Assembly: GCF_900104615.1 (NCBI RefSeq)
Contig: NZ_LT629939.1
Span: forward strand, 72,141 to 105,238
Direction: 5' to 3'
Source: Merdimmobilis hominis
GTDB lineage: Bacteria; Bacillota; Clostridia; Oscillospirales; Ruminococcaceae
DNA: 33,098 nucleotides
Part shown: positions 1 to 15,544 of the stretch, piece by piece
Position numbering within the stretch: position 1 is the first letter of the stretch
How the letters are laid out: the number at the start of each line of letters is the position of its first letter
The notes under the pieces: model-generated
What the model was told of the DNA's origin: nothing
The model's database searches: none
Seen by the model: only the letters and a program-made list of their open reading frames with translations
Made by a program: the position numbers and the translations under genes

Positions 1-1
1 C

Positions 2-77
2 GCGGGTTTAGCTCATCTGGTAGAGCGCCACCTTGCCAAGGTGGAGGTAGCGAGTTCGAGCCTCGTAACCCGCTCCA
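2..77 (+). tRNA. tRNA-Gly (anticodon GCC)
   Basis: A full cloverleaf can be drawn. The acceptor stem GCGGGTT (2-8) pairs with AACCCGC (67-73), followed by discriminator T and an encoded CCA at 75-77. The anticodon stem CCACC/GGTGG closes the loop TTGCCAA, with anticodon GCC at 35-37, which reads GGC and GGU glycine codons. The T arm GCGAG/CTCGT closes TTCGAGC. A strong terminator follows within 4 nt. The promoter lies outside the window. Confidence 0.96.
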
Positions 78-80
78 ACA

Positions 81-109
81 AAAGGCTGGAAAAAAACCAG
101 CCTTTTTTT
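81..109 (+). terminator. Rho-independent terminator after tRNA-Gly
   Basis: AAAGGCTGG and CCAGCCTTT form a perfect stem around a short A-only loop, followed by a run of T. It ends the tRNA-Gly transcript. Confidence 0.9.
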
Positions 110-178
110 CTTATCTTTTGGTTGTTTCCTCCGTTGTTTTAAAACGGTTGGAAAGCAAAAAGCTCTTTGGGGCAGCGG

Positions 179-207
179 AGCGAGTTTGAGCCTTGTAACC
201 CACTCCA
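179..207 (+). pseudogene. Decayed copy of the 3' part of tRNA-Gly
   Basis: These 29 nt match positions 49-77 of the intact tRNA-Gly at 26 of 29 positions. They run from the T-arm through the acceptor 3' strand to CCA. No 5' half is recognisable upstream, so no functional tRNA can form. It could be what is left of a tandem tRNA duplication, or an attachment-site-like remnant of an element that once used the tRNA 3' end. The sequence alone does not separate these. Confidence 0.6.
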
Positions 208-282
208 AAGAGAAAAGTAGCGGTTTATAGGAATATAAAATTCCCTTCTTTCATATAGTGTTGATGTGATCCGCCACAGTAC

Positions 283-357
<75 letters not shown>

Positions 358-363
358 CCATGT

Positions 364-405
364 AAGGCCAGTGATCCGCTTGCCAGCGGGTCACTGGCCT
401 TTTTG
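364..405 (+). terminator. Long terminator hairpin after tRNA-Cys
   Basis: AAGGCCAGTGA pairs with TCACTGGCCTT, and the inner CCGC/GCGG extends the stem to roughly 16 bp with one wobble. A T-run follows. The helicase ribosome binding site begins 13 nt later. No separate helicase promoter is obvious, so helicase expression may come from read-through of this structure. Confidence 0.85.
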
Positions 406-429
406 TATGTTAAAAACAAGGAGTATCGT

Positions 430-1551
430 ATGACAAAATACAGTGAACTCGCCTTGTCGGCGGAAATACAGCAGGCTGTGGAAAAAATGGGTTTCACCCA
501 ACTGACCGAAGTGCAGGAAAAGGCGATCCCCGTTCTGTTAGAGGGCAAAGAAGTCATTGCCAAAGCCCCCACCGGCACCGGCAAAACTTGTGCCTTTGGC
601 ATCCCCATTATCGAAATGCTGAACCCGGAATCCAAACAGGAACCCCAGGCGTTGATCCTTTGCCCCACCCGGGAGCTCTGCCTCCAGATCCGGGATGTGA
701 TGCGGGATCTCACCGCCTTTCTTCCCCATATTCGCACTGTGGCGGTCTATGGAGGACAGCCTATCGCCGGCCAGATTGAGGCGCTGAAAAAATCGCCTCA
801 GATTGTGGTTGCAACCCCCGGCCGCCTGCTGGATCATCTGAAGCGGAAAACCATCCAGCTTACCGGGGTCACTACTGCCATCCTGGATGAGGCGGATGAA
901 ATGCTGGACATGGGCTTCTTCAAGGAAGTCCGGCGTATTTTAGATGCCCTCCCCAAGGGGAAGCGACTTTCCATGTTTTCTGCCACCATCTCCCGGGAGG
1001 TGATGGACATCGGCTGGCTGTACCAGCGGGATCCAGTGGAGATCACTGTCCAGCCTGTGGAGGACAGCCGCCCTCAGATCACCCAATACAGCCTGCAGAC
1101 CAACACCGGCCGCCAAAAGATTGAAGATTTGTGCCAGATCATCGCCCGCAATGGTTACCACAAGGTGTTGGTGTTCTGCAACACCAAATACGCTACTTCC
1201 AGCCTCTGTGACCAGCTGAACATCCGCAGGGTGCCGGCCATCTGCTTGAGCGGAGAACTCCAGCAGAGCGCCCGCAATAAGATCATGGCTCAATTCCGGG
1301 AACAAAAGGACTGTGTTCTCATCGCAACCGATGTGGCTGCCCGCGGCATCGACGTAGAAGATGTGGACGCTGTGGTCAACTATGACGTTCCCCAGAGCAA
1401 CGAATACTACCTGCACCGCATCGGCCGCACTGGCCGTGCAAAAAAATCCGGCACCGCCTACATCTTCTATATGGAGGATGAAAAAAAGCGGCTGGATAAT
1501 ATCATCCACTTTACCCGGTCGGACATTCAGCCCATGACCCGGGAGTGGTAA
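430..1551 (+). CDS. DEAD-box ATP-dependent RNA helicase
   Basis: A 373-residue DEAD-box helicase that uses ATP to unwind or remodel RNA, with likely roles in ribosome assembly or mRNA turnover. The RecA-like core is complete. It has a Q-motif-like FTQLTEVQ near residue 22, Walker A APTGTGKT at 46-53, PTREL, TPGRL, DEAD, SAT, VLVFCNTK, ATDVAARGIDV and HRIGRTGRA in the usual order. The protein stops soon after motif VI with no basic or RRM-like tail, so it is a minimal core, shorter than CshA or DbpA. An in-frame reading extends upstream into the tRNA/terminator region. ATG 430 is preferred because AAGGAG lies at 418-423. The specific orthologue cannot be named from sequence alone. Confidence 0.93.
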   Translation: MTKYSELALSAEIQQAVEKMGFTQLTEVQEKAIPVLLEGKEVIAKAPTGTGKTCAFGIPIIEMLNPESKQEPQALILCPTRELCLQIRDVMRDLTAFLPHIRTVAVYGGQPIAGQIEALKKSPQIVVATPGRLLDHLKRKTIQLTGVTTAILDEADEMLDMGFFKEVRRILDALPKGKRLSMFSATISREVMDIGWLYQRDPVEITVQPVEDSRPQITQYSLQTNTGRQKIEDLCQIIARNGYHKVLVFCNTKYATSSLCDQLNIRRVPAICLSGELQQSARNKIMAQFREQKDCVLIATDVAARGIDVEDVDAVVNYDVPQSNEYYLHRIGRTGRAKKSGTAYIFYMEDEKKRLDNIIHFTRSDIQPMTREW

Positions 1552-1555
1552 TGGC

Positions 1556-1584
1556 AACCGGCCTTTCGTGTAAGGCCGGTTTTT
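1556..1584 (+). terminator. Terminator after the DEAD-box helicase
   Basis: AACCGGCCTT and AAGGCCGGTT form a 10-bp stem with a 6-nt loop, followed by TTT. It starts 5 nt after the helicase stop codon. Confidence 0.9.
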
Positions 1585-1599
1585 AATTTCACACTTTAC

Positions 1600-1628
1600 T
1601 TGACAAAAGTGCCTGCAAGAGGTATGAT
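1600..1628 (+). promoter_or_regulatory. Sigma-A promoter of the M20 amidohydrolase
   Basis: TTGACA at 1600-1605 and TATGAT at 1623-1628 are separated by exactly 17 nt. The gene starts at 1695, leaving a leader of about 60 nt. Confidence 0.85.
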
Positions 1629-1694
1629 AGGGAACAGAAAACGACCGTATCCATCTGGGAATCGCCATACAACGATACATGAGGAGGAACTGCA

Positions 1695-2873
1695 ATGAAC
1701 TATTTTCTCAATCGGGCTAAGGAACTGGAACAGGAATTGATTGCCATGCGCCGTGAGATCCACAGCTATGCGGAATTGGGTTTTGACCTGCCTAAAACAA
1801 ATGCCTTCGTCACGGAAAAACTGCGCTCCTACGGCTACGAGCCCAAAACTGTGGGCAAAGCCGGTGTCACCTGCACTGTGGGCAAGGGGGGGAAAGTTCT
1901 CCTGCTGCGGGCAGATATGGACGCCCTGCCCATGCCCGAGGAATCTGGGATGCCTTATGCCGCCCAGAACGGCCACTGTCACTCCTGCGGCCACGACTGC
2001 CATACCGCTATGCTTTTGATCGCCGCCAAAATGCTTAAAGAGAAGGAAGAGGAACTAAAAGGTACGGTGAAATTTATGTTCCAGCCGGCGGAGGAGCTGC
2101 TGGCTGGGGCTGCTGCCATGGTGGAAGACGGTATCATGGAGAACCCCAAGGTGGATGTGGCCTTGGGACTGCACATTTCGGTTGGAATGGATGACACCCG
2201 CAGCGGCATCATCCGCTACATCTCCGGGGTGGCCAACAACTCCGGCGATGCCATCCGCATCTCCATTCAGGGTCATGGGGTTCATGGCTCTAAGGCCTAT
2301 TTGGGCGTGGATGCCATCAACATCGCCGCCCACACCATCATCGCCCTCCAGGAGATCCTGGCGCTGGAAATTCCCAGCACCCAGCCGGCTGTGGTGCTGG
2401 TGGGCAAAATGGAGGGCGGTTCCAGCTGCAACAGTGTGGCAGATACCGCTTCCCTGGAGATCTCGGTCCGTACCAATTCGGTGGAGACCCGCAATTTCCT
2501 GAAGAAACGAATCAAAGAGATCGCCGAATCGGTGGCTGCCACCTACCGCGGAACCGCCACTGTAGAGCATATGTACGGTATGCCGCCCCTGGTGAACAAC
2601 TCGGATTTTGCCCGGGAGATGGGCCGTTACGCAGCAGAGATGCTCCCCCAAGGCGACGTGGAGGAGATCGGGCCCAGCGGCGGCGGGGAGGACTTCGCTG
2701 TGGTGGCCGAGAGGGTTCCCGGGGCCATGATTTACCTGGGTGTCGGCAGCACGGAAGAGGGCTATTGCCATCCCTGCCACGATCCCAAGATGAAAGTCAA
2801 TGAGGAGGCCCTTTATGTGGGAAGCGCCACCTATGCCCAGTGCGCTGTCCGGTATCTGGAAGAAAACTGCTAG
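1695..2873 (+). CDS. M20-family amidohydrolase (hippurate/N-acyl amino acid hydrolase type)
   Basis: A 392-residue metal-dependent hydrolase of the M20D/amidohydrolase group, expected to cleave N-acyl amino acids or similar amides in the cytoplasm. The family landmarks are present: REIHSYAELGF near residue 20, LLRADMDALP near 70, and the metal-binding segment CHSCGHDCH at 95-103 with Cys98, His100 and His103. PAEE follows at 131-134, then His160, HGVHGSK, GGEDFAV and a C-terminal CHPCHD. The GAGGAGGA Shine-Dalgarno sits about 8 nt before ATG 1695, and a consensus promoter lies upstream. The exact substrate is unknown; N-acetyl-diaminopimelate deacetylase and hippurate hydrolase belong to the same superfamily. 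No terminator is seen before the orphan inverted repeat that begins 8 bp after the stop. Confidence 0.9.
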   Translation: MNYFLNRAKELEQELIAMRREIHSYAELGFDLPKTNAFVTEKLRSYGYEPKTVGKAGVTCTVGKGGKVLLLRADMDALPMPEESGMPYAAQNGHCHSCGHDCHTAMLLIAAKMLKEKEEELKGTVKFMFQPAEELLAGAAAMVEDGIMENPKVDVALGLHISVGMDDTRSGIIRYISGVANNSGDAIRISIQGHGVHGSKAYLGVDAINIAAHTIIALQEILALEIPSTQPAVVLVGKMEGGSSCNSVADTASLEISVRTNSVETRNFLKKRIKEIAESVAATYRGTATVEHMYGMPPLVNNSDFAREMGRYAAEMLPQGDVEEIGPSGGGEDFAVVAERVPGAMIYLGVGSTEEGYCHPCHDPKMKVNEEALYVGSATYAQCAVRYLEENC

Positions 2874-2881
2874 GCTTTCCA

Positions 2882-2948
2882 TTGGCTGCCAAATTTTCCA
2901 CATCCTTTGTCTTATACCGAGTACAGGAATTCTATCACCGAAGAATAG
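2882..2948 (-). repeat. Orphan inverted copy of the cwlD/radA junction (67 bp)
   Basis: The reverse complement of these 67 bases matches 5537-5603 at 66 of 67 positions. The matching segment contains the last codons and stop of cwlD, the radA ribosome binding site and the first radA codons. Here it is non-coding and starts 8 bp after the M20 amidohydrolase stop. Both flanks stop matching abruptly. Because the other copy is made of two genes with normal ends, this copy is probably the derived one. Confidence 0.93.
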
Positions 2949-2974
2949 CAGCATACCCTCTGGCAAATCTTCCA

Positions 2975-3003
2975 TTGAAAAAAGCGGAGGAAACTGGTAT
3001 AAT
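2975..3003 (+). promoter_or_regulatory. Sigma-A promoter of the PepT-like gene
   Basis: TTGAAA at 2975-2980 and TATAAT at 2998-3003 are spaced by 17 nt, about 70 nt upstream of the start codon. It begins only 27 bp after the orphan inverted repeat. Confidence 0.85.
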
Positions 3004-3075
3004 ACTAACGTGTCAGCTGAGGGAAACCCAATGGATGGCTGAACCGTGAAAATCCATTACTGGAGGAGCAACACC

Positions 3076-4191
3076 ATGGAATTAAATAAAAAAAGACTGC
3101 TTGATACCCTGTGCGAAATGATCCGCATTGACAGCGTCTCCCTGCACGAAAAGGAGATGGCCGACTGGATCGAAACATATTTTAAAAACCGTGGCTTTGA
3201 CGTTTACCGGGATGAAGCCGGCAAAAACTTTGGAAGCAACGGCGGCAACCTTTTGATCCATGTGCCCGGCACCATGGAGGGCGAAGCCCTGTGCTTCAAC
3301 GCTCACATCGACACCGTATCCCCCGGCAACGGCATTGAGCCGGTTGTAGACGGGGAATTCCTGGTCAGCAAAGGGGACACCATCCTGGCCGCTGATGACA
3401 AGTCCGGCATCGCCGCTATTCTGGAGGCTTATGAGTATATCCGGGAGAACAACATCCCCCACCGGGAGATGTACTTCCTCTTCACCATCTGCGAAGAGCA
3501 GAATATGATGGGTTCCAAGAACTTCGACGTCTCCAAGCTGCCCTGCAAGAACATGGTTTCCATCGACGGAGCGGGCAAGCCTGGCGTTATCGTCACTGCG
3601 GCCCCTGCCAAAGACGGCATTGTCGCCACCTTTAAGGGCAAAAAAGCCCACGCTGGCATCGAGCCGGAAAAAGGCATCAACGCCATCACCATGGCTTCCA
3701 AGGCCATCGCTAAGATGACTTTGGGCCGCATCGATGCGGAGACCACTGCCAACATCGGCCGCATCGAGGGCGGCGGGCAGACCAATGTGGTCACCGATGA
3801 GGTGTTCTTCACTGCGGAAGTGCGCTCCCACAGCATGGAGAAGCTGAAAAACCAGGTGGAGTCGATGAAAAAAGCCTGTGAAGAGGCTGCCGCCGAGATG
3901 GGCGGCCAGGTAGATTTTGCCGTCAGCCACGATTACCCCTGCTTTGTGCTGAGCCAGGAATCCTTTGCTTTTAAGGCTTGTATGGCCGCCTATGAAAAAG
4001 AGGGCATCCCCACCTCCACCCTTATCGGCGGGGGCGGCGGCGACTGCAACATCTTCGCCGGTTCCGGTATCACCTGCGCCTGCATCGCCAGCGGTATGTA
4101 CGACGTCCATTCCTCCAATGAGCGTCTGAACTTGGAGGAGTTCTATACCACCACCCGGGTGGTCTACACCATGATGACTGAAAAATTCTAA
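3076..4191 (+). CDS. PepT-like M20 metallopeptidase
   Basis: A 371-residue di-zinc peptidase of the M20B/peptidase T-like group, likely a cytoplasmic aminopeptidase acting on short peptides. Visible ligand motifs are NAHIDTV (His77, Asp79), LAADDKSG (Asp107/108), the catalytic pair CEEQ (Glu140/141) and SIDGAGKPG (Asp164). The dimerisation segment contains KKAHAGIEP, and the distal part has GGGGGDCN and DVHSSNE. The length is shorter than true tripeptidase T (about 410) and fits the PepT-like subgroup. An upstream in-frame start at 3046 exists. ATG 3076 is preferred because GGAGGAG at 3062-3068 is 7 nt before it. It has its own promoter and terminator, so it forms a single-gene unit. Confidence 0.9.
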   Translation: MELNKKRLLDTLCEMIRIDSVSLHEKEMADWIETYFKNRGFDVYRDEAGKNFGSNGGNLLIHVPGTMEGEALCFNAHIDTVSPGNGIEPVVDGEFLVSKGDTILAADDKSGIAAILEAYEYIRENNIPHREMYFLFTICEEQNMMGSKNFDVSKLPCKNMVSIDGAGKPGVIVTAAPAKDGIVATFKGKKAHAGIEPEKGINAITMASKAIAKMTLGRIDAETTANIGRIEGGGQTNVVTDEVFFTAEVRSHSMEKLKNQVESMKKACEEAAAEMGGQVDFAVSHDYPCFVLSQESFAFKACMAAYEKEGIPTSTLIGGGGGDCNIFAGSGITCACIASGMYDVHSSNERLNLEEFYTTTRVVYTMMTEKF

Positions 4192-4212
4192 CAGTATCCA
4201 TCCCTATTGGAG

Positions 4213-4240
4213 CAGCCGGGCCTTCGGGCTCGGCTGTTTT
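4213..4240 (+). terminator. Terminator after the PepT-like gene
   Basis: CAGCCGGGCC and GGCTCGGCTG form a 10-bp stem with one G-T pair around a TTCG tetraloop, followed by TTTT. Confidence 0.88.
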
Positions 4241-4259
4241 CCAAAGCGGATATGGAGGT

Positions 4260-4817
4260 ATGCTTTTGAACCGGAAAAAATCACTGTTCTCTCAAGGGTT
4301 AGGGCTGTTTGGAGTGAGCTTGTTCGGGGTGTTTTTCGCCGCCATTATCGTCTTTTCACTGGGCCTCCTCTGGCAGGGAAGAACCAGCCAGATGGTTGTC
4401 CAGACAGCGGCGCTCCTCTCCTTCTGCATGGTGGTATATCACAGCGCATGGGCTATGGGGGAGGAGGAGGGCCGCCTTTCCCGGCTGGAAAAACGGCCGG
4501 TCCGGAGCCATCGCGGGGTGCCGGTGGGCCTTGTTGCCGCTGTCCCGTATTTTGCCTCTGGGCTGATCCTGATCCTCTCTAAGGCGGGAGCCATCCCCGA
4601 TGTGGCCTTCCTCTATAAACTCTTTACCCCCCAGCACGTCTTTTTTATCAACTGGGTGATGCCCTCCGGCTACGCTGCCAACGCCTCTTGGGGTGCTGTC
4701 GCCCTGGTGATTGGGTTTCACCTATGCCTGCCTGTCACTGCCTGGCTGGGGTATCTGCTGGGCACCAAAGAAATCCTCCTCCTTTACCGGCTGGTGTTCC
4801 GCAGTCCAAAAAGGTAG
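4260..4817 (+). CDS. Integral membrane protein of unknown function
   Basis: About 185 residues, not recognised as a named family. Four hydrophobic stretches are visible: roughly 13-38, 45-65, 88-108 and 140-172. A charged loop around 67-85 (EEEGRLSRLEKRPVRSHRG) lies between the second and third. The C-terminus is basic. GGAGG at 4254-4258 is only one base before ATG 4260 but 7 nt before TTG 4266 (third codon), so translation may really begin at TTG 4266. The gene lies between a terminator and cwlD, 42 bp before the cwlD start, and is probably co-transcribed with cwlD. That could suggest a cell envelope or sporulation role, but this is only context. No clear promoter is visible. Confidence 0.7.
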   Translation: MLLNRKKSLFSQGLGLFGVSLFGVFFAAIIVFSLGLLWQGRTSQMVVQTAALLSFCMVVYHSAWAMGEEEGRLSRLEKRPVRSHRGVPVGLVAAVPYFASGLILILSKAGAIPDVAFLYKLFTPQHVFFINWVMPSGYAANASWGAVALVIGFHLCLPVTAWLGYLLGTKEILLLYRLVFRSPKR

Positions 4818-4859
4818 CATAATCCCCGCCCGGCGGCGCATACCTTCGTGGTGGGAGTG

Positions 4860-5573
4860 ATGGCATTGAAGAAAAAATATTGGTTGGCTGTCCTTGTGCT
4901 GTGTGTGGTCACATTTGCCGCAGCAGGGGGTATGGTCTTTCGGATTCACAGAACCTGCCCGGTGATGCTCACTGCGGGGAACCGGCCCCGGATCATTATC
5001 GACGCCGGGCACGGCGGGATGGACGGCGGCGCGGTTGGGTACAACAACATTGTGGAGAAAGACATCAACTTGGCCATTGCTGAAGATCTGCGGGACTTGT
5101 TTGTGATCAGCGGGTTTGACGTGGTGATGACCCGGGACAGCGACTGTTCTATCCACGACGACGGGATCACCGGGGTGAAGAACCAAAAGACCTCGGATAT
5201 GCGCAACCGCCTAAAAATTATGGAGCAAAATAGGGATGCCATCTTTTTGAGCATTCACCAAAACAAATTCACCGACCCCAAGTATAGCGGCGCCCAGATG
5301 TTTTACAGCCCTAATCTCCCGGAAAGTGAGGAACTGGCCGCTATCATGCAGCGCCATTTCCGGGAGATGCTCCAACCGGAGAACACCCGGGAGCGCAAAC
5401 GGTCCGGCCGGGAACTGTTCCTCCTCTACAAGGCCCAAACCCCGGCGGTATTGGTGGAGTGCGGCTTCCTCTCCAATCCCCAGGAGGCCACCAATTTGAT
5501 TGATCCGGAATACCAGGAAAAGGTGGCCTTTGTCATCTATTCTTCGGTGATGGAATTCCTGTACTCGGTATAA
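4860..5573 (+). CDS. cwlD: N-acetylmuramoyl-L-alanine amidase, CwlD type
   Basis: A 237-residue amidase with an N-terminal signal anchor (residues 7-27) and an Amidase_3 domain. It would cleave the stem peptide from muramic acid outside the membrane. In spore formers, CwlD starts muramic-delta-lactam production in the spore cortex. Zinc ligands are seen as His51 (DAGHGG), Glu66 (VEKD) and His133 (SIHQN), with the catalytic Glu200 in VECGFLSN. The single-domain architecture with a short N-terminus fits CwlD better than vegetative autolysins with SPOR or CWB repeats. ATG 4860 has GGTGG about 6 nt upstream; TTG 4866 is also possible with GGGAG 8 nt upstream. The last 36 nt of the gene (5538-5573) lie inside the 67-bp inverted repeat. 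Confidence 0.9.
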   Translation: MALKKKYWLAVLVLCVVTFAAAGGMVFRIHRTCPVMLTAGNRPRIIIDAGHGGMDGGAVGYNNIVEKDINLAIAEDLRDLFVISGFDVVMTRDSDCSIHDDGITGVKNQKTSDMRNRLKIMEQNRDAIFLSIHQNKFTDPKYSGAQMFYSPNLPESEELAAIMQRHFREMLQPENTRERKRSGRELFLLYKAQTPAVLVECGFLSNPQEATNLIDPEYQEKVAFVIYSSVMEFLYSV

Positions 5574-5603
5574 GACAAAGGATGTGGAAAATTTGGCAGC
5601 CAA
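5537..5603 (+). repeat. 67-bp inverted repeat, coding copy at the cwlD/radA junction
   Basis: This is the partner of 2882-2948 in opposite orientation, with 66 of 67 bases identical. It holds the last cwlD codons, the TAA stop, the AAAGGA Shine-Dalgarno and the beginning of radA. The single difference changes a Met codon near the cwlD C-terminus to Ile in the orphan copy. Confidence 0.93.
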
Positions 5604-6969
5604 AATCAAAACAAACTATGTGTGCTCTGCTTGTGGGTACGAAGCCCCCAAATGGTACGGCAAATGCCCGGAGTGCGGCGCTTGGAATACTTTTGAGGAA
5701 CAGGTGAAATCGGTTCCCCTCAGCAGCAAAATGCCCCCGAAGGAACATGTGAAGTCTGCGGTGGTTTCCCAGCTCCACGAGATTTCATCCGATGAGCGGC
5801 AGCGGTACAAAACCGGCTTAAAGGAGTTGGACCGGGTGCTGGGCGGTGGCGTTTTCCCCGGGTCGGTGATCCTGCTCAGCGGCGACCCTGGCATCGGCAA
5901 ATCCACCATCCTGCTGCAGATTTGCCAGTTTCTATGTCAAAACCTAAAAATCCTATATGTATCCGGCGAGGAGAGCGCCCGCCAGGTCAAGCTGCGGGCT
6001 GTGCGGCTGGGGGTGGACAGCGACAACCTGTACATCTCCTCCATCACCGACATCGCCCAGGTGGTGCAGACCATTGAGCAGCTTTCCCCCGACCTGGTGA
6101 TGGTGGATTCCATCCAAACCATGAACCTCTCCACTATCCAGTCCTCTTCGGGCAGTGTGACCCAGGTGCGGGAATGCACCCAGCAGTTGATTTATGTGGC
6201 CAAGGCCAATGACATCCCCATATTTGTAGTCGGCCACGTCAATAAGGACGGCGCTATCGCCGGTCCCAAAGTGTTGGAGCACATGGTGGACTCTGTCCTC
6301 TATTTCGAAGGGGAGCGCAACCTTTCCTACCGGATTTTGCGGGCGGTGAAGAACCGCTACGGCTCCACCAACGAGATCGGTGTCTTTGAAATGACTGAAA
6401 GCGGCCTGGAAGAGGTACAGAACCCCTCTATGATGTTGCTCTCCGGCCGGCCGACCAACGTCTCCGGTACCTGCGTCGCCTGTGTCATCGAGGGGAGCCG
6501 TCCTATTATGGCAGAGGTTCAGGCCCTGGTGACCAAAACCGCATTCGGCAATCCCCGCCGGACTTCCACCGGGTTTGATTTCAACCGCACAGCGTTGATT
6601 TTGGCGGTATTGGAAAAGCGGGGCGGCTACTTCTTTGGCAACCTGGACGCTTACATCAACGTGGTGGGTGGTCTGCGGCTGGACGAGCCCGCGGCAGATC
6701 TGCCGGTGGCCTTGGCCCTTGTCTCCAACCTGACCGACCGGGTCATTGCGGAAGATGTAGTCGCCTTTGGCGAAGTGGGCTTGGCTGGGGAGATTCGGGC
6801 CGTCAGCCGGGTGCAATCCCGGGTCAACGAGGCTTACCGGCTGGGGTTCCACAAGATCATTCTGCCCCGTGCGTCGATGAAGCAGCTGAAAACCGACGAC
6901 CTGCCGACGGATTTAGAGCTAATCGGGGTCAGCAGCCTCGCCCAAGCCTGTGCGGCCCTCAAAGGATGA
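5593..6969 (+). CDS. radA: DNA repair protein RadA
   Basis: 458 residues; a RecA-like ATPase that promotes branch migration in recombination. Order of parts: C4 zinc finger (Cys11, Cys14, Cys25, Cys28), Walker A GDPGIGKST at 97-105, the RadA signature KNRYG at 253-257 (KNRFG in many bacteria), and a C-terminal Lon-protease-like domain with GEVGLAGEIR. TTG 5593 is chosen because it is 10 nt after AAAGGA and gives the family-typical beginning MAAKIKTNYVC. GTG 5584 is in frame but only one base after the Shine-Dalgarno. It follows the cwlD stop by about 20 nt and is likely co-transcribed. The last 51 nt overlap a small convergent gene. Confidence 0.95.
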   Translation: MAAKIKTNYVCSACGYEAPKWYGKCPECGAWNTFEEQVKSVPLSSKMPPKEHVKSAVVSQLHEISSDERQRYKTGLKELDRVLGGGVFPGSVILLSGDPGIGKSTILLQICQFLCQNLKILYVSGEESARQVKLRAVRLGVDSDNLYISSITDIAQVVQTIEQLSPDLVMVDSIQTMNLSTIQSSSGSVTQVRECTQQLIYVAKANDIPIFVVGHVNKDGAIAGPKVLEHMVDSVLYFEGERNLSYRILRAVKNRYGSTNEIGVFEMTESGLEEVQNPSMMLLSGRPTNVSGTCVACVIEGSRPIMAEVQALVTKTAFGNPRRTSTGFDFNRTALILAVLEKRGGYFFGNLDAYINVVGGLRLDEPAADLPVALALVSNLTDRVIAEDVVAFGEVGLAGEIRAVSRVQSRVNEAYRLGFHKIILPRASMKQLKTDDLPTDLELIGVSSLAQACAALKG

Positions 6970-7101
6970 CCGGTCGTCCTCCACCCGGGAAAAATAAGCG
7001 CATTCCTCATCCGCACTGGTACCCAGCGGGGTGATTTGATCCAAACTGCAATAGCCGTCCCGTTGGTGGCGGCAGTGTTTTGCGCACGGAATCCAACTCA
7101 T
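6919..7101 (-). CDS. Small four-cysteine protein, convergent with radA
   Basis: 60 residues, starting at ATG 7101 with GAGGTGAG about 7 nt upstream on the minus strand. The N-terminal half has four cysteines (6, 10, 18, 34) in the pattern CAKHC-x7-C-x15-CAYF. This suggests a small metal-binding fold. The text around DGYCSLDQIT resembles short Cys-rich proteins I recall from Clostridia that are often mislabelled or listed as hypothetical; I could not check this. The C-terminal tail (about residues 43-60) is antisense to the end of radA and lacks the cysteine pattern. No function is claimed. The clear Shine-Dalgarno and cysteine spacing argue that it is real. Confidence 0.6.
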   Translation of the reverse strand: MSWIPCAKHCRHQRDGYCSLDQITPLGTSADEECAYFSRVEDDRSSFEGRTGLGEAADPD

Positions 7102-7243
7102 TCTACTCACCTCATAGTGGTTAGTGTGCGGCTGGATTCCGCAATTATTCCAAGGAAATCCTACAGTATATTCCCCCCCATGCGAGAGAGAATAACAAAA
7201 GTGACAAGCTTTGGTTATTTACTTTGGTATGGGGGTTTTTTTG

Positions 7244-8311
7244 ATGCGGATGAAGTTGTTTCTCACCCTGTTTACCGTGGGGGTGATCCTGTTGGCGGGG
7301 TGTTTGCCCCAGCTTTTTTTGTCCTCCCTCTGCTCAGTGCAGTACATTCGCCCAGTGGAACAGCCTTACAGCAGGCGCTTGAGCTGTGAAGGGGTGGTGC
7401 GGGCTCAAAAGTCAGCGGAAGTTTACCTGGACACCCCGGTGATCCCCATGGAAGTCCCTGTCTCAGTGGGGGATTGGGTTGGGGAGGGGGATTCTCTGGC
7501 GGTGATCGATGTCTCCCTCACCCAGACTGTGCTTGCCCACAGCGGTGCTGTGGCGGTGGAGAAAGAAGCAAAAAGCGGCCTTTCCCAGCAGTTGGAAGAT
7601 TTATATGCCTTGGCGGAAAGTTATCAGATCGGCCGGGATCAGGTGGATGCCCTCGCCCAGGGCTACACCTCTGGCTACCAGCAGTCCCCCTCGGTTGAGG
7701 TAGGCTATATCCCCAGCGCCATTGCGTCCCCTATCCAAGGGATTGTGGCCAAGGTCAACCTTCAAGAGAATATCCTTTCCGGGAAAGGGCAGATGGCATT
7801 TTCCGTTGTGGACCCCAGCGGATACCAGGTGGTAATCTCCATCCCCCAGTCCCAGGCGGATGATGTCTACGAGGGCTGCCAGGCAGTCATCCGCTGCAAT
7901 GGACAGACCAAAGAATACAACGGGACCTTAACCAAACTCTATCCCACGGCGGAGAACAGCGGGGCAGGGGAGGCGACCGTCACAGCAGAAGTCCTCATTG
8001 AAGATGGGGACTCCTCCCTGCGGGATGGGTACGCCGCCAAAGTGGACCTTCTTTTGGAGGAGGAGCGCCAGGTGGTGATGGTCCCCTTTGAATCGGTGCG
8101 CCAAGACCGGGAAAATATTGAGTATGTTTATGTGTTTGAAGGGGGGAAAGCCATCCGGCGGGATATTGAAACCGGGGTGGAGACAGCGGAGGGTGTAGAA
8201 GTCCTTGCGGGGCTAGCTCCCGGGGAAATTGTCCTCTTTGACCCGGATGAGCCGGCGGTCTCCCACAACTTTGTCTATTTAAGGGGGGAAGCAAATGCTG
8301 ATGCTGATTGA
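7244..8311 (+). CDS. Periplasmic-adaptor (MacA/HlyD-like) efflux subunit
   Basis: 355 residues. This is the membrane-fusion type partner of an FtsX/MacB-like transporter, probably linking or regulating an efflux pump at the outer face of the membrane. The N-terminus is hydrophobic and contains LLAGC, with Cys20 matching a lipobox, so it may be a lipoprotein; a plain membrane anchor is also possible. A biotinyl-lipoyl-like half-motif (VGDWVGEGDSLAVID) and its partner (IASPIQGIVAKVNLQ) flank a short helical hairpin (about residues 95-140). A beta-barrel and a C-terminal membrane-proximal domain follow. ATG 7244 is chosen because GGGGG at 7231-7235 is 8 nt upstream. The stop overlaps the next gene by 17 nt, so the pair is translationally coupled. 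Confidence 0.83.
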   Translation: MRMKLFLTLFTVGVILLAGCLPQLFLSSLCSVQYIRPVEQPYSRRLSCEGVVRAQKSAEVYLDTPVIPMEVPVSVGDWVGEGDSLAVIDVSLTQTVLAHSGAVAVEKEAKSGLSQQLEDLYALAESYQIGRDQVDALAQGYTSGYQQSPSVEVGYIPSAIASPIQGIVAKVNLQENILSGKGQMAFSVVDPSGYQVVISIPQSQADDVYEGCQAVIRCNGQTKEYNGTLTKLYPTAENSGAGEATVTAEVLIEDGDSSLRDGYAAKVDLLLEEERQVVMVPFESVRQDRENIEYVYVFEGGKAIRRDIETGVETAEGVEVLAGLAPGEIVLFDPDEPAVSHNFVYLRGEANADAD

Positions 8312-9497
8312 TAGCGTGCGCTGCGGCCTGCGCAACCTGGGGAGGAAGCGCTTCCGCAGCGTACTGACCATCCTGGGGATCTCCATCGGAGTGGCGTCGG
8401 TGGTTTTAACTGCATCCATTGGGGAAATTGGCCGCTCCCAGATCAACATGGAGATTGAAAAGATGGGGGTCGGCTCTATCTTAATCAGTGTGGACGGGAT
8501 GCGCCATCCCTCCGCCGCCCTGCGGGAAGAGGATCTTCCCAGATTGCAAGAGCTCCCCTCGGTGGAGAGCACCCTCCCAGTGCTGATGAAATACACCGAT
8601 GTCTACATGCGGGGCCTGGTCTCCAAATGTGTGGCCTGGGGCGTAGGGGATGGAGCAGAGGAAACCGTCTCCATGGTGCCCATCTACGGCCGGCTGTTTG
8701 ATCAAGCGGATATGGACAAGCAGAACAAAGTCTGTATTGTAGACCAAAACTTAGCTGAAGCCTTTTACCACCGTTCCAATATTGTGGGGAAAACCATCGA
8801 GGTACAATACGACAACAAAACCGAATCCTATGAGATTGTAGGGGTCGTGGAGTCCGGAGGGAACCTGATGCAAAACATGTTGGGGGAGTATGTGCCATCC
8901 TTCCTATACCTTCCATATACCACTATGCAAAGCGCGTCTGGCCAGGACCACTTTGACCGAATCGCTGTCCGGGCGGCGGAAGGGGAAGACCCGGATCGGG
9001 TGGGGGAGGAGATTATCACCCAGCTCTGCCAGACATCCGGCCGATCCGAAAGCATGTGCACTGTGGAGAACATGGCAAAACAGAAGGAAGGGCTCAACCG
9101 GATTATGGATTTGGTCACCTTAGTTCTCTCCGCAATTGCGGCGATTTCCCTGGTGGTAGCGGGCCTTGGCATCATGACGATGATGCTGACCTCAGTCAAT
9201 GAGCGCACCAAAGAAATCGGGATCAAAAAATCCATCGGCGCCAGCGAAGGGATCATCCTGCTGGAATTCCTCATCGAGGCGTTTACCTTGTCTCTGGTGG
9301 GAAGCATAATCGGGGCCGGTGTAGGCCTTGGCATTGTGCTCATCTGCTGTGCCATTGGGGGGATTCCTATGGCAATCAATTGGACCCTAACCTGGGCGGT
9401 CATTGGTTTTACAGTGCTGCTTGGGGTTCTATTCGGCGTATACCCAGCGGCAATTGCCGCAAAGCTTCGGCCGGTGGATGCCCTGCGGTTTGAATAG
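8295..9497 (+). CDS. FtsX/MacB-like ABC transporter permease
   Basis: 400 residues with the four-helix MacB/FtsX layout. One helix lies at about 23-42 (VLTILGISIGVASVV). A large extracytoplasmic MacB_PCD domain spans about 45-265. Three helices then lie near 272-300, 318-345 and 358-385, ending in the usual RPVDALRFE. There is no ATP-binding domain and no ATPase gene next to it, unlike most MacA-MacB operons, so the ATPase must be elsewhere or be shared. AAGGGGGG precedes ATG 8295 by about 7 nt. The substrate could be a peptide, antibiotic or lipoprotein. A terminator follows. Confidence 0.87.
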   Translation: MLMLIDSVRCGLRNLGRKRFRSVLTILGISIGVASVVLTASIGEIGRSQINMEIEKMGVGSILISVDGMRHPSAALREEDLPRLQELPSVESTLPVLMKYTDVYMRGLVSKCVAWGVGDGAEETVSMVPIYGRLFDQADMDKQNKVCIVDQNLAEAFYHRSNIVGKTIEVQYDNKTESYEIVGVVESGGNLMQNMLGEYVPSFLYLPYTTMQSASGQDHFDRIAVRAAEGEDPDRVGEEIITQLCQTSGRSESMCTVENMAKQKEGLNRIMDLVTLVLSAIAAISLVVAGLGIMTMMLTSVNERTKEIGIKKSIGASEGIILLEFLIEAFTLSLVGSIIGAGVGLGIVLICCAIGGIPMAINWTLTWAVIGFTVLLGVLFGVYPAAIAAKLRPVDALRFE

Positions 9498-9503
9498 AGA
9501 ATG

Positions 9504-9530
9504 AAAGGATGGGATGTATCCCATCCTTTT
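9504..9530 (+). terminator. Terminator after the permease gene
   Basis: AAAGGATGGGAT and ATCCCATCCTTT are exact reverse complements around GT, followed by T. The stem begins 6 nt after the stop codon. Confidence 0.88.
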
Positions 9531-9907
9531 GTGTATATCCAGAGCGAACTCCAACGACGACCCACCAGAAATATCTGCCCGTTTTATTGGAGAGAATGGA
9601 CTTGCGGAAAGAGGCTGCCTGTGGTAAAATAAAGGGGCGGACAACTTCGCAAAATAAAGATTTAACGAAATTAAGGGGAGCGCAATTTTCGATGTGATTC
9701 TAAAACTTAAACTTAGCGGTCTGGGATTACCATAAGGCTTTAGGCGGTGTTGGAATTATCAATCATTTCACTCCTTATCATAGAAATTGGATGATACCCA
9801 ATCATCTTTTCAGGTAAGTTCCATGTACGCTGTATCGTCGCCAATCTGATCGCATCGGATGCAAACATCATCGTCAGCTGACTTTTAGGAATCATGGAGG
9901 GTTTCAC
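9531..9907 (+). other. Gene-free, AT-richer region upstream of the Xer recombinase
   Basis: No supported gene lies here. Short readings on either strand lack a Shine-Dalgarno and family features. One promoter-like pair is visible: TTGCGG (9602-9607) and TAAAAT (9625-9630), spaced 17 nt, which would give the recombinase a leader of about 270 nt. Two weak dyads occur. CGAAATT/AATTTTCG spans 9666-9691, and GATGAT/ATCATC at 9790-9806 is followed by TTTT. The base composition is more AT-rich than the neighbours, as is the start of the recombinase gene. It may be a decayed gene, a regulatory leader, or both. Confidence 0.5.
9602..9630 (+). promoter_or_regulatory. Candidate promoter upstream of the Xer recombinase
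   Basis: TTGCGG and TAAAAT are separated by 17 nt. The -35 is imperfect and the distance to the start codon is long (about 280 nt), so the assignment is tentative. Confidence 0.4.
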
Positions 9908-10909
9908 ATGTCCATTCAAGAATATCAAGATGCACCGGATTTTCTGCGGGATTTTTTATTTTATCTATTAACCATCAAAGGGCGGTCGCCCAAAACCGTA
10001 GAAGCTTATTACATAGACCTGCGGATGTTCTTCCGGTTTTTGCTGCAATACAAGCATATGGCCCCGGCCGATCAACCGATCCATGAAATTTCAATTGATT
10101 CCATTTCATTAGATTTTGTTAAAAATATAACATTATCAGATGCTTATGCCTTTTTAAATTACACCCTGACCGAGGCCGATAACAACGCCAAAACAAGGGC
10201 GCGCAAAGTTTCCAGCCTGCGCTCTTTTTTCCGGTATATGACCGCCAAATCCCACCTGTTGGAAAAAAATCCTGTGCAGGAGCTGGAAGTTCCTTCTGTA
10301 AAGAAATCCCTTCCCCGGTATCTAACCTTAGAGGAAAGCCTGGAGCTCCTCAGCAGTGTGGAGGTGAAAGATTTTGAATCCGCTCGGGATTACTGTATGA
10401 TCACCCTGTTTCTAAACTGTGGGATGCGTCTTTCTGAACTGGTGGGCATCAACCTCTCCGACATGAAAGAAGAAACACTAACCATCACCGGCAAAGGCAA
10501 CAAAGAACGGGTGGTTTATCTCAACGACGCCTGCCGGGCCGCGATTAAAACCTACCTGGCTGTTCGGCCAGTGGATGGGGTGAAAGACAAGGACGCACTG
10601 TTCCTCTCCAGCCGGAAAAGCCGGATCTCTGGCCGGCGGGTGGAGCAGATTGTGGAGAAAGCCTTACAGTCGGCCGGGCTCTCCGCCAAAGGGTATTCCC
10701 CTCATAAGCTGCGGCACACAGCGGCGACGCTGATGTATCAGCACGGTGGAGTCGATATCCGGGCACTGAAAGAGGTCTTGGGGCATGAAAACATCGCCAC
10801 TACTGAGATCTACACCCATGTATCCAGCGCACAGGTGGAAAATGCCATCAAGAGCTCTCCCCTTTCCCAGGTGAAAAAAGACACAAAAAAAGCGCCACAA
10901 GGCGCTTAG
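9908..10909 (+). CDS. XerC/XerD-type tyrosine recombinase
   Basis: 333 residues. The N-terminal SAM-like core-binding domain (about 10-115) is followed by a catalytic domain with the complete tyrosine recombinase set: Arg174 (CGMRLSEL), Lys near 196 (TGKGNKER), His266 and Arg269 (HKLRH), His293 (LGH) and Tyr302 (EIYTHV). The length and organisation fit the host Xer recombinases that resolve chromosome dimers, rather than a longer phage integrase. No element ends, excisionase or clear dif site were seen near it. GGAGG lies about 7 nt before ATG 9908. The stop overlaps the convergent membrane gene by 4 nt, and its coding tail holds that gene's terminator. Confidence 0.92.
   Translation: MSIQEYQDAPDFLRDFLFYLLTIKGRSPKTVEAYYIDLRMFFRFLLQYKHMAPADQPIHEISIDSISLDFVKNITLSDAYAFLNYTLTEADNNAKTRARKVSSLRSFFRYMTAKSHLLEKNPVQELEVPSVKKSLPRYLTLEESLELLSSVEVKDFESARDYCMITLFLNCGMRLSELVGINLSDMKEETLTITGKGNKERVVYLNDACRAAIKTYLAVRPVDGVKDKDALFLSSRKSRISGRRVEQIVEKALQSAGLSAKGYSPHKLRHTAATLMYQHGGVDIRALKEVLGHENIATTEIYTHVSSAQVENAIKSSPLSQVKKDTKKAPQGA
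10884..10907 (-). terminator. Minus-strand terminator inside the recombinase 3' end
   Basis: Read on the minus strand, AAGCGCC TTGT GGCGCTT is followed by a run of T. It ends the DUF624-like gene transcript but lies within the coding sequence of the Xer gene. Confidence 0.8.
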
Positions 10910-11613
10910 TGGGAAGAATCCCGGAAGATGGAATCTTCCCTTTTTTGTTGGGAAGCATAGGGCAGGATCAGGAATTTTTCCACAATGGGATAGCTGTTGA
11001 AGGACGCCACTAGGGAGAGAAATGCCGGCAAGATGGTCACCACAAAAAATGCCGAGTAAGGGTAAAAGTACAGGCAGGCCAACAGCAGATTCCCCACAAG
11101 GAACAGAGTAATCAGGTTGGTTCGCAGTGCCACTAACGACAAAATAAAGGCGTTTTTCAAGATATCCCAGAGGGGCAAATCGAGGGTCACAATCATCAAA
11201 GGTGCATAAAAATTCACAATAATGAGGACCCCGATCACTGCCCAACAAAGGTATAACGGGATTTGAAATAGCGGGTTATGTGCTGTGTACGGAAGGCATA
11301 GGGTAATCACCACCCCGACTATGCCAAGCGAGCCGCAGAAAAAGAGCCCATAGATAAACCCCTGTTTCCAGTTTTTGCGAAACGTTCCCCAATAATCCGA
11401 GACCAAAAATAGTGGCTTGCCGATGGCAAAATTGCGGGTGACATAGGCCATAGCACAAAGGGCCGGCCCAATGGTCACCACTGGAATACAGCTGAGTAAA
11501 AAGAGAAGATTCAAACCAATCAACTTCCAAAATTTGTGAAAGAAAACCTCGATAAAGACAAAAAAACGCCTTTTTTCCAGAGGTTCCCTAGGGGAGGACA
11601 AAGAATTCCCCAA
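10906..11613 (-). CDS. DUF624 (YesL-like) membrane protein
   Basis: 235 residues with about five hydrophobic segments. The N-terminal part (FFHKFWKLIGLNLLFLLSCIPVVTIGPALCAMAYVTR, given here as residues 24-60) matches my recollection of DUF624/YesL membrane proteins, which are often near carbohydrate uptake genes but are of unknown biochemical function. TTG 11613 is used because AGGAGAT lies about 8 nt upstream and the nearby ATG at 11621 is out of frame. A TATAAT-like -10 (plus-strand 11652-11657) overlaps the end of the SpoIIM-like gene, but no good -35 is seen. The last codons overlap the Xer stop by 4 nt. Confidence 0.78.
   Translation of the reverse strand: MGNSLSSPREPLEKRRFFVFIEVFFHKFWKLIGLNLLFLLSCIPVVTIGPALCAMAYVTRNFAIGKPLFLVSDYWGTFRKNWKQGFIYGLFFCGSLGIVGVVITLCLPYTAHNPLFQIPLYLCWAVIGVLIIVNFYAPLMIVTLDLPLWDILKNAFILSLVALRTNLITLFLVGNLLLACLYFYPYSAFFVVTILPAFLSLVASFNSYPIVEKFLILPYASQQKREDSIFRDSSH
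10911..10946 (+). terminator. Plus-strand terminator of the Xer gene
   Basis: GGGAAGA-A-TCC and GGA-A-TCTTCCC pair with a single internal mismatch, followed by six T. The hairpin lies in the coding end of the convergent DUF624-like gene. Confidence 0.78.
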
Positions 11614-11652
11614 GAGACCATCTCCTTCCTGATTTTAAAACATCCCCTGACA

Positions 11653-12309
11653 TTATAGTGCAAAATAACTAGAAAACATTTGAAATAGCAGGCTTTCTAA
11701 GGCGGAAGTACCAGCTAAACAAGCTGTAAAGATAATATACTTTACACAGTAATCTCCCACAGAAGTACCTTCGCTAGGCATTTGTAGGGGATTGATCACC
11801 TGAAAAAACATGCAGCTGAGCCCCAAAGACTCCTTACAACAGAACAGGAGAACCAAGGTTGAAAGAATAGTCCCCGGCAGCAGCAGAACAATCAGATACC
11901 CCATGGCAGAACTGCCGTAAATGCTTAGCATCGTGGAGGCGGACAGCCCAAATCCCAACCCTTTAAAGAAGGGTACCAGAGCAATCAGCGGCTGAGAGAT
12001 GGCACAAAACCCGCAGAAAAACAAGAGTGCCGCCGGCCAAAAAGAAGAAAAAAATGTGCTCAAAAATGTTTGGCGCATCTCCTGCCCTTCCCGTCGGGAG
12101 ACAAACCCGTTGAGGAGGATCAGCAGTTGATCCAAGGTTTCCCCCTGGAAACTGCCAATAAAGGATGTCCCAATCCAGACACCAAAAATGAATAAAAATC
12201 CAAACAATAAAATCAACCAATTCTCCCGGATAAAAAATAGGAAATACCGCTTGTAATAGCCAGCCTTGCGCCGTTTCCCATCCAGGCCAAAACTGCGTGT
12301 CCGATTCAT
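11653..12309 (-). CDS. SpoIIM-like sporulation membrane protein
   Basis: 218 residues with about five membrane segments, starting near residue 30 (ENWLILLFGFLFIFGVWIGT). The size and helix layout agree with SpoIIM/DUF95 proteins, which with SpoIID and SpoIIP drive peptidoglycan remodelling during engulfment. ATG 12309 is chosen because GAGGTGG lies 7-8 nt upstream; TTG 12339 is in frame but has a poorly placed Shine-Dalgarno. A sigma-E-like promoter candidate sits just upstream. The assignment rests on topology and on other sporulation genes in the window, so a different SpoIIM-fold protein is possible. Confidence 0.65.
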   Translation of the reverse strand: MNRTRSFGLDGKRRKAGYYKRYFLFFIRENWLILLFGFLFIFGVWIGTSFIGSFQGETLDQLLILLNGFVSRREGQEMRQTFLSTFFSSFWPAALLFFCGFCAISQPLIALVPFFKGLGFGLSASTMLSIYGSSAMGYLIVLLLPGTILSTLVLLFCCKESLGLSCMFFQVINPLQMPSEGTSVGDYCVKYIIFTACLAGTSALESLLFQMFSSYFAL

Positions 12310-12916: not shown

Positions 12917-13222
12917 CTATTTTGCGCTGTTGTTCTGTTGGACAGCCCAACGGGTGATGCGGATCTTGCTGCGGTCGCTGCCGGTCTCGATGACGATGGT
13001 CTCATCTTTGATATTGACCACCCGGCCGATGATGCCGCCGATGGTGACAATCTCATCCCCGACCTCCAGTTTGGAACGCATCAGCTGAATCTCTTTCTCC
13101 TTCTTTTTCTGGGGACGGATCATGAAGAAGTACAGGATGGCGAACATGGCGGCAATCATCGCGAACTGGGTGAACATCGCCATGGAAGCATTGGTCGGGG
13201 TTTGCAGCATAATTTGTGTCAT
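12917..13222 (-). CDS. yajC: Preprotein translocase subunit YajC
   Basis: 101 residues: one membrane helix at about 14-35 followed by the YajC cytoplasmic domain, with FFMIRPQKKKEKE, then LEVGDEIVTIGGIIGRVV. YajC associates with SecDF and the Sec translocon. ATG 13222 is used, although the GGAGG is about 12 nt upstream, which is long. A consensus promoter precedes it, separating it from tgt. secDF is not visible in the window. Confidence 0.93.
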   Translation of the reverse strand: MTQIMLQTPTNASMAMFTQFAMIAAMFAILYFFMIRPQKKKEKEIQLMRSKLEVGDEIVTIGGIIGRVVNIKDETIVIETGSDRSKIRITRWAVQQNNSAK

Positions 13223-13257
13223 GGTTGTTTTGCACCTCCAAAAAATATACAAATAAT

Positions 13258-13326: not shown

Positions 13327-15544
<2,218 letters not shown>

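Follow-up and report, generated by a model that had tools for sequence, protein, structure and literature searches.

Template-switch mutations are a known class of mutation that produces reverse-complement copies, and PMC8794818 allows that the source and the target of such copies could be separated by longer distances. Here we describe a locus in Merdimmobilis hominis (Ruminococcaceae) at which a copy of this kind appears to lie 2.6 kb from its source. The window, by which we mean the whole stretch of DNA that was analyzed (33,098 nucleotides; assembly GCF_900104615.1, contig NZ_LT629939.1, positions 72,141 to 105,238 of the forward strand), holds a 67-bp inverted repeat, one arm of which spans the junction between the genes cwlD and radA; positions below are counted from the first letter of the window. 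With a probability of roughly 0.72, we read the other arm as a one-off short inverted templated insertion that was probably made by replication template switching, without a mobile element, and that is probably functionless. The two arms are the following.

Positions 2882-2948, minus strand: left arm, a secondary inverted copy of the cwlD/radA junction to judge by the arm comparison, located between an M20 amidohydrolase gene and the promoter of a pepT-like gene, with no comparable match elsewhere in the family and order samples.

Positions 5537-5603, plus strand: right arm, the original cwlD/radA junction to judge by synteny and by the CwlD tail and RadA head, which are conserved in relatives.

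Compared directly, the left arm and the reverse complement of the right arm agree at 66 of 67 positions, and a repeat search of the window returns the pair as arms of 67 nt that are 99% complementary and spaced by 2588 nt. The other five of the six inverted pairs in the window measure just 20-25 nt at 80-86%, and the pair is the window's single long separated inverted repeat. The lone mismatch falls at 2933, where a T in the left arm stands against a C in the reverse-complemented right arm. Both ends are abrupt, as the first outside base already differs on either side, and the printed flanks of the arms carry no homology past the 67 nt. When the 67-mer is searched against its own genome, the arm match has an expect value (E) of 1.0e-27 to 3.3e-29, which excludes chance. 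A near-identical reverse-complement copy (66/67) in the same genome, with sharp ends and unrelated flanks, is what one looks for in a template-switch insertion. It is also what a first-pass annotation of this stretch, made from the letters alone, had described: a near-perfect 67-bp inverted repeat with sharp ends. That description holds in full.

The genes and sites around the arms are these.

Positions 1695-2873, plus strand: M20 family amidohydrolase gene (Peptidase_M20 match; TIGR01891 above its cut-off).

Positions 2975-3003, plus strand: promoter-like site TTGAAA-17-TATAAT (11/12), upstream of the pepT-like gene.

Positions 3076-4191, plus strand: PepT-like M20 peptidase gene (TIGR01883 at 345.9 bits, cut-off 274.25).

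Positions 4260-4817, plus strand: gene for a predicted protein that we call Mem, with hydrophobic stretches judged by eye; Mem-like proteins precede cwlD in relatives.

Positions 4860-5573, plus strand: cwlD, a CwlD-like N-acetylmuramoyl-L-alanine amidase gene (Amidase_3 at E 5.3e-45; TIGR02883 at 213.1 bits, slightly below its cut-off of 221.55).

Positions 5593-6969, plus strand: radA/sms (TIGR00416 at 590.6 bits, cut-off 403.05; start taken from the alignment with relatives).

The right arm consists of the final 37 nt of cwlD, including its stop codon (5571-5573), then a gap of 19 nt, and lastly 11 nt from the start of radA. A putative radA Shine-Dalgarno sequence, AAAGGAT at 5577-5583, sits inside it, 9 nt upstream of the TTG at 5593. 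This TTG, and not the GTG at 5584 given in the mechanical list of open reading frames, is probably the start of radA, because of the AAAGGAT at that distance and because a Met, the probable initiator, is aligned to residue 4 of the window's RadA in 6 of the 17 relatives that have both genes (L096, L097, L100, L101, L103, and L105). The left arm starts 8 nt past the amidohydrolase stop codon (2871-2873) and ends 26 nt ahead of the -35 box of the promoter-like site.

A search with CwlD matched 98 of 148 family genomes, our own included, and stretches around the gene were taken from 18 of the 97 others, several of them shortened by contig ends. In 17 of these 18 loci radA follows cwlD, in one case (L101) after a 1.66-kb gap; the remaining locus, L111, has no RadA match. 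A Mem-like protein is encoded ahead of cwlD in 5 of the 18, in the same orientation as in the window. Mem itself matches nothing in Pfam or NCBIfam at E 0.001. At E 1e-8, the 18 stretches showed none of the genes found upstream in the window (DEAD-helicase, amidohydrolase, and PepT). All 17 relatives with both genes have recognizable CwlD tails and RadA heads: the tail SSVMEFLYSV encoded in the right arm aligns with SSIMEF in L095 and SSLMEYL in L110, and the RadA alignments start at window residue 1 to 7. Because the right arm carries the sequence of two conserved genes, whose adjacency recurs in relatives, it is on these comparisons the original, and the left arm an inverted secondary copy. 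As far as the relatives' synteny and alignments tell, the source segment has been kept and is ancestral, which a template-switch insertion also calls for; the first-pass annotation, which had taken the right copy as original and the left as an inverted copy of the junction, is borne out by the conserved tail and head and the recurrent adjacency. At the single base difference, the cwlD codon ATG (Met) is matched by ATA in the left arm. Since the two closely matching tails, those of L095 and L110, also have Met, the change probably arose in the left arm.

We then asked how widely the 67 bp occurs, using samples of 396 genomes from the family and 394 from the order, each of which includes our own and which overlap. 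Within its own genome, the 67-mer has no match at E 0.001 beyond the two arms and a redundant contig end, described below. Nothing comparable appears in the 395 other family genomes (best 22 nt, E 0.0017). At a cut-off of E 1, 225 of the 396 family genomes, our own included, list matches; outside our own genome these are short (15-37 nt among the matches listed), as expected by chance. In the order sample, the 393 other genomes give no match as good as E 1e-4. Viral contigs do not contain an exact 34-nt pattern, and a megablast of 1695-6966 returns nothing in plasmids or phages, in collections that may leave out records very near the window's genome. An Rfam scan of 1-12000 places no family at the left arm, with only two tRNAs and two sub-threshold matches elsewhere, which rules out a known structured RNA there. 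Given these null searches of the own genome, the family, the order, viral contigs, plasmids and phages, and Rfam, nothing points to a mobile or dispersed element. A dispersed repeat or a miniature inverted-repeat transposable element (MITE) should occur as several copies at unrelated loci, and neither the own genome nor the family and order samples show this. On these searches the dispersed repeat is rejected; the outcome that the first-pass annotation had named as refuting its reading, the 67 bp at many unrelated loci in related strains, did not turn up in the 395 family and 393 order genomes.

The background rate of such repeats was assessed in 471,508 bases of the own genome (24 pieces, about a fifth of the genome, with the window and redundant contig ends included). 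There, the arm pair is the sole inverted match of 40-150 nt at an identity of at least 97% between separate places, apart from a 44-nt match in L041 that is caused by the fold-back of a contig end; the direct match of 76 nt found there corresponds to a tRNA-Ala pair. The relatives' sequence, 343,728 bases in 19 loci, yielded no inverted match between separated places that reached 20 nt at E 0.01. As neither sample holds a like match, the inverted copy stands as an isolated event within what was examined.

The same own-genome sample contains weaker inverted matches between loci (among them L035/L048, 65 nt at 92%; L034/L038, 65 nt at 94%; L033/L048, 35 nt at 97%). Additionally, L043 contains a perfect 27-bp inverted repeat (13211-13237 and 13604-13630) with a spacing of 366 nt, in a region that has stretches of 136-184 nt, 89-95% identical, in common with L051 and L113.

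The insertion could have arisen as follows. During replication or repair of the stretch, a nascent strand past the end of the amidohydrolase gene would have moved to the strand of the same polarity at the cwlD/radA junction, 2.6 kb off, used it as the template for 67 nt, running backwards from 5603 to 5537, and then returned. This would leave an inverted copy immediately ahead of the pepT-like promoter, with no gene interrupted, and the left arm would afterwards have changed at one base, 2933. The strand may have been primed by TTG or by CTGSCAAATYTTCCA. Three short sequences near the insert bear on such a switch.

Positions 2877-2884, plus strand: left member of an 8-bp direct repeat, TTCCATTG, which spans the left edge of the insert.

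Positions 2970-2977, plus strand: right member of the TTCCATTG repeat, which overlaps the -35 box of the pepT-like promoter.

Positions 2960-2974, plus strand: a 15-mer, CTGGCAAATCTTCCA, just right of the insert and a possible pairing site for the switch.

A direct repeat near the insert as good as TTCCATTG was obtained in 5 of 2000 mononucleotide shuffles. The 15-mer CTGGCAAATCTTCCA is identical at 13 of 15 positions to CTGCCAAATTTTCCA, which belongs to the copied segment itself (2886-2900, and 5585-5599 on the minus strand, at its radA end); a match as good came up in 36 of 2000 shuffles. These two local similarities may reflect a template switch, with which they fit without proving it.

Several points weigh against this reading. 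The homology comparisons were chosen post hoc and used mononucleotide shuffles, and three of the five gave nothing noteworthy, equally good results being reached in 1137, 1162, and 1969 of 2000 shuffles. The template switches usually described are local, and 2.6 kb is far for them. With the TTCCATTG repeats as its boundaries, the insert would be a 93-nt unit, and for about 21 nt of it (2949-2969) no source was found; the whole right-hand flank, 2949-3075, has no source elsewhere in the own genome beyond the redundant contig copy (best 15 nt exact, E 0.99), and its longest match there is 29 nt at 76% (E 3.45). With those boundaries the empty site is predicted to read amidohydrolase stop-GGCTTTCCATTGAAAAAAGCGG. 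No empty site was found, as none of 60 other genomes matches 2600-3300 at the DNA level. A scan with PepT for the relatives' empty site gave six loci at 30-48% identity, too distant to use, and amidohydrolase homologs occur in seven other family genomes at 52-63% identity. Lastly, the scaffold holds many contig-end artifacts. Template switching, which the first-pass annotation had suggested, fits the local homologies but is not established as the mechanism, the empty site not having been found; nor is the recent date that the annotation suggested for the event.

The contig-end artifacts bring up the strongest of the alternatives, namely that the left arm was added by contig extension or scaffolding and is absent from the chromosome, which we consider unlikely. 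The assembly has a third copy of the 67 bp at C3:71939-72005, ending 135 bases ahead of the window. Window positions 1-3082 are repeated exactly at the end of the left contig (L004:16058-19140); a single N comes next, and then the window starts. The third copy is scaffold redundancy, because it is part of this exact 3082-nt repeat ending at an N join and because similar overlaps occur at other runs of N: the 23 loci of the own genome that were examined contain 11 N-runs, and at 8 of these the two sides overlap directly and exactly, over 87 to 3307 nt. The other three are an N-run in a repeated tRNA array (L005), the first N-run of L037, which lies at the locus edge, and the fold-back in L041. 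The redundancy at the window's left edge lies outside the window and was absent from the first-pass annotation. A scaffold that is redundant at its joins, with one contig end folding back as a perfect 1520-bp palindrome, lends the artifact some weight, as does the left contig stopping just 134 nt right of the left arm. The fold-back in L041, however, sits on a perfect 44-bp palindrome, and no palindrome is listed at 2882-2948. Furthermore, the flanks of the left arm are single-copy on both sides apart from the redundant contig end, the one-base difference between the arms is unexplained by machine copying, and the arm is identical in both overlapping contigs, which may not be independent.

As observations on the assembly itself, redundant contig ends also occur at further N-runs, in L036, L037, L043, L048, L049, and L051, and gene and tRNA counts taken from it are probably inflated. 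The palindrome in L041 (5099-6618, 1520 bp) is centered on a palindromic terminator-like hairpin at a contig end and is probably an assembly fold-back. An assembly that repeats its contig ends calls for care with any copy count drawn from it.

It is rather improbable that the left arm is the remnant of a larger inverted duplication, or of a MITE-like non-autonomous mobile element that captured the junction, with TTCCATTG as its target duplication. The 8-bp repeat at 2877-2884 and 2970-2977 would suit such an element, but no terminal inverted repeats were noticed when the 93-bp unit was inspected by eye, a second insertion is absent from the own genome and the family and order samples, and homology at the printed arm flanks stops at the 67 nt.

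A de novo antisense element is less probable still. Readthrough from the amidohydrolase gene would give a 3' untranslated region antisense to the radA Shine-Dalgarno sequence, the radA start codon, and the cwlD stop codon, and would lower RadA synthesis. Read in the plus direction, the left arm forms the antisense of the radA start region, with 66 of 67 positions paired; a promoter-like site (1600-1628, 11/12) precedes the amidohydrolase gene, and a crude terminator scan lists no terminator between that gene and the left arm. The same scan, however, missed a probable terminator near 4212-4240, and the predicted duplex of -143.5 kcal/mol is uninformative on use, since a strong duplex is expected of any inverted copy. 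We would place little credence in a newborn regulator made by one switch, in which expression of the amidohydrolase, by way of RNase III-type cleavage of the duplex, silences radA and possibly cwlD too. If true, it would point to a mutational route to bacterial antisense regulators, fully matched in one step.

The weakest alternative, that recombination between the arms flips 2949-5536 (pepT-like gene, Mem, and cwlD) and separates radA from the operon ahead of it, is hardly credible: an in-silico flip does keep all five genes open, with the amidohydrolase, PepT, Mem, and RadA unchanged and CwlD altered only from Met to Ile near its end, but the open frames follow from an arm that holds a gene tail and a gene head and are not independent evidence, no dedicated invertase was recognized (a XerC/D-like gene at 9908-10909 falls below the XerC and XerD cut-offs, and no other part of the window was scanned for recombinases), 5 of the 17 relatives that have both genes carry Xer homologs close to cwlD-radA and gave no comparable arm match in their genomes, and the segment's genes look like housekeeping genes, unlike the surface genes that often accompany invertons (PMC11892184). 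Inverted templated insertions can create antisense RNAs and inversion substrates in one step; neither consequence is shown here.

Other features of the neighborhood are recorded as side observations. After the pepT-like gene, a folded strong UUCG-type hairpin with a short T run (4212-4240) is probably the terminator that the simple scan missed. A second PepT-like gene of the own genome (L113:9734-10840) has 66% protein identity to the one in the window, and by eye its upstream region bears no resemblance to the window's. PepT-like matches at E 1e-60 are rare, occurring in 11 of the 148 family-sample genomes, our own included. Between the tRNA-Gly and tRNA-Cys genes, a decayed tRNA-like stretch (179-239) resembles, by eye, the 3' half of tRNA-Gly.

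Compared with described systems, the locus shares with MITEs and other small non-autonomous elements a short non-coding insert and a possible 8-bp direct repeat; unlike them, it has no second insertion in the searches made and no terminal inverted repeats that we noticed, and its content comes from a local gene junction. With invertons, the phase-variable invertible segments treated in PMC11892184 and detected by PhaseFinder, it shares a near-perfect inverted repeat around a segment, here of 2.6 kb, and it differs in that no dedicated recombinase was recognized and the segment holds no surface-modification genes. The template-switch mutations of Monttinen and Loytynoja, related to quasipalindrome mutations, are, as studied in PMC8794818, local events within stem-loops, with source and target at most 8 bp apart, whereas here the distance is 2.6 kb and the result a clean 67-nt insertion, a difference that belongs with the points weighed against our reading above. 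What the locus has in common with them is a reverse-complement copy, abrupt ends, and a single event. Read in this way, the inverted copy would add a clear natural case to a known kind of mutation: an inverted templated insertion that is non-local and whose donor, polarity, and endpoints can all be read.

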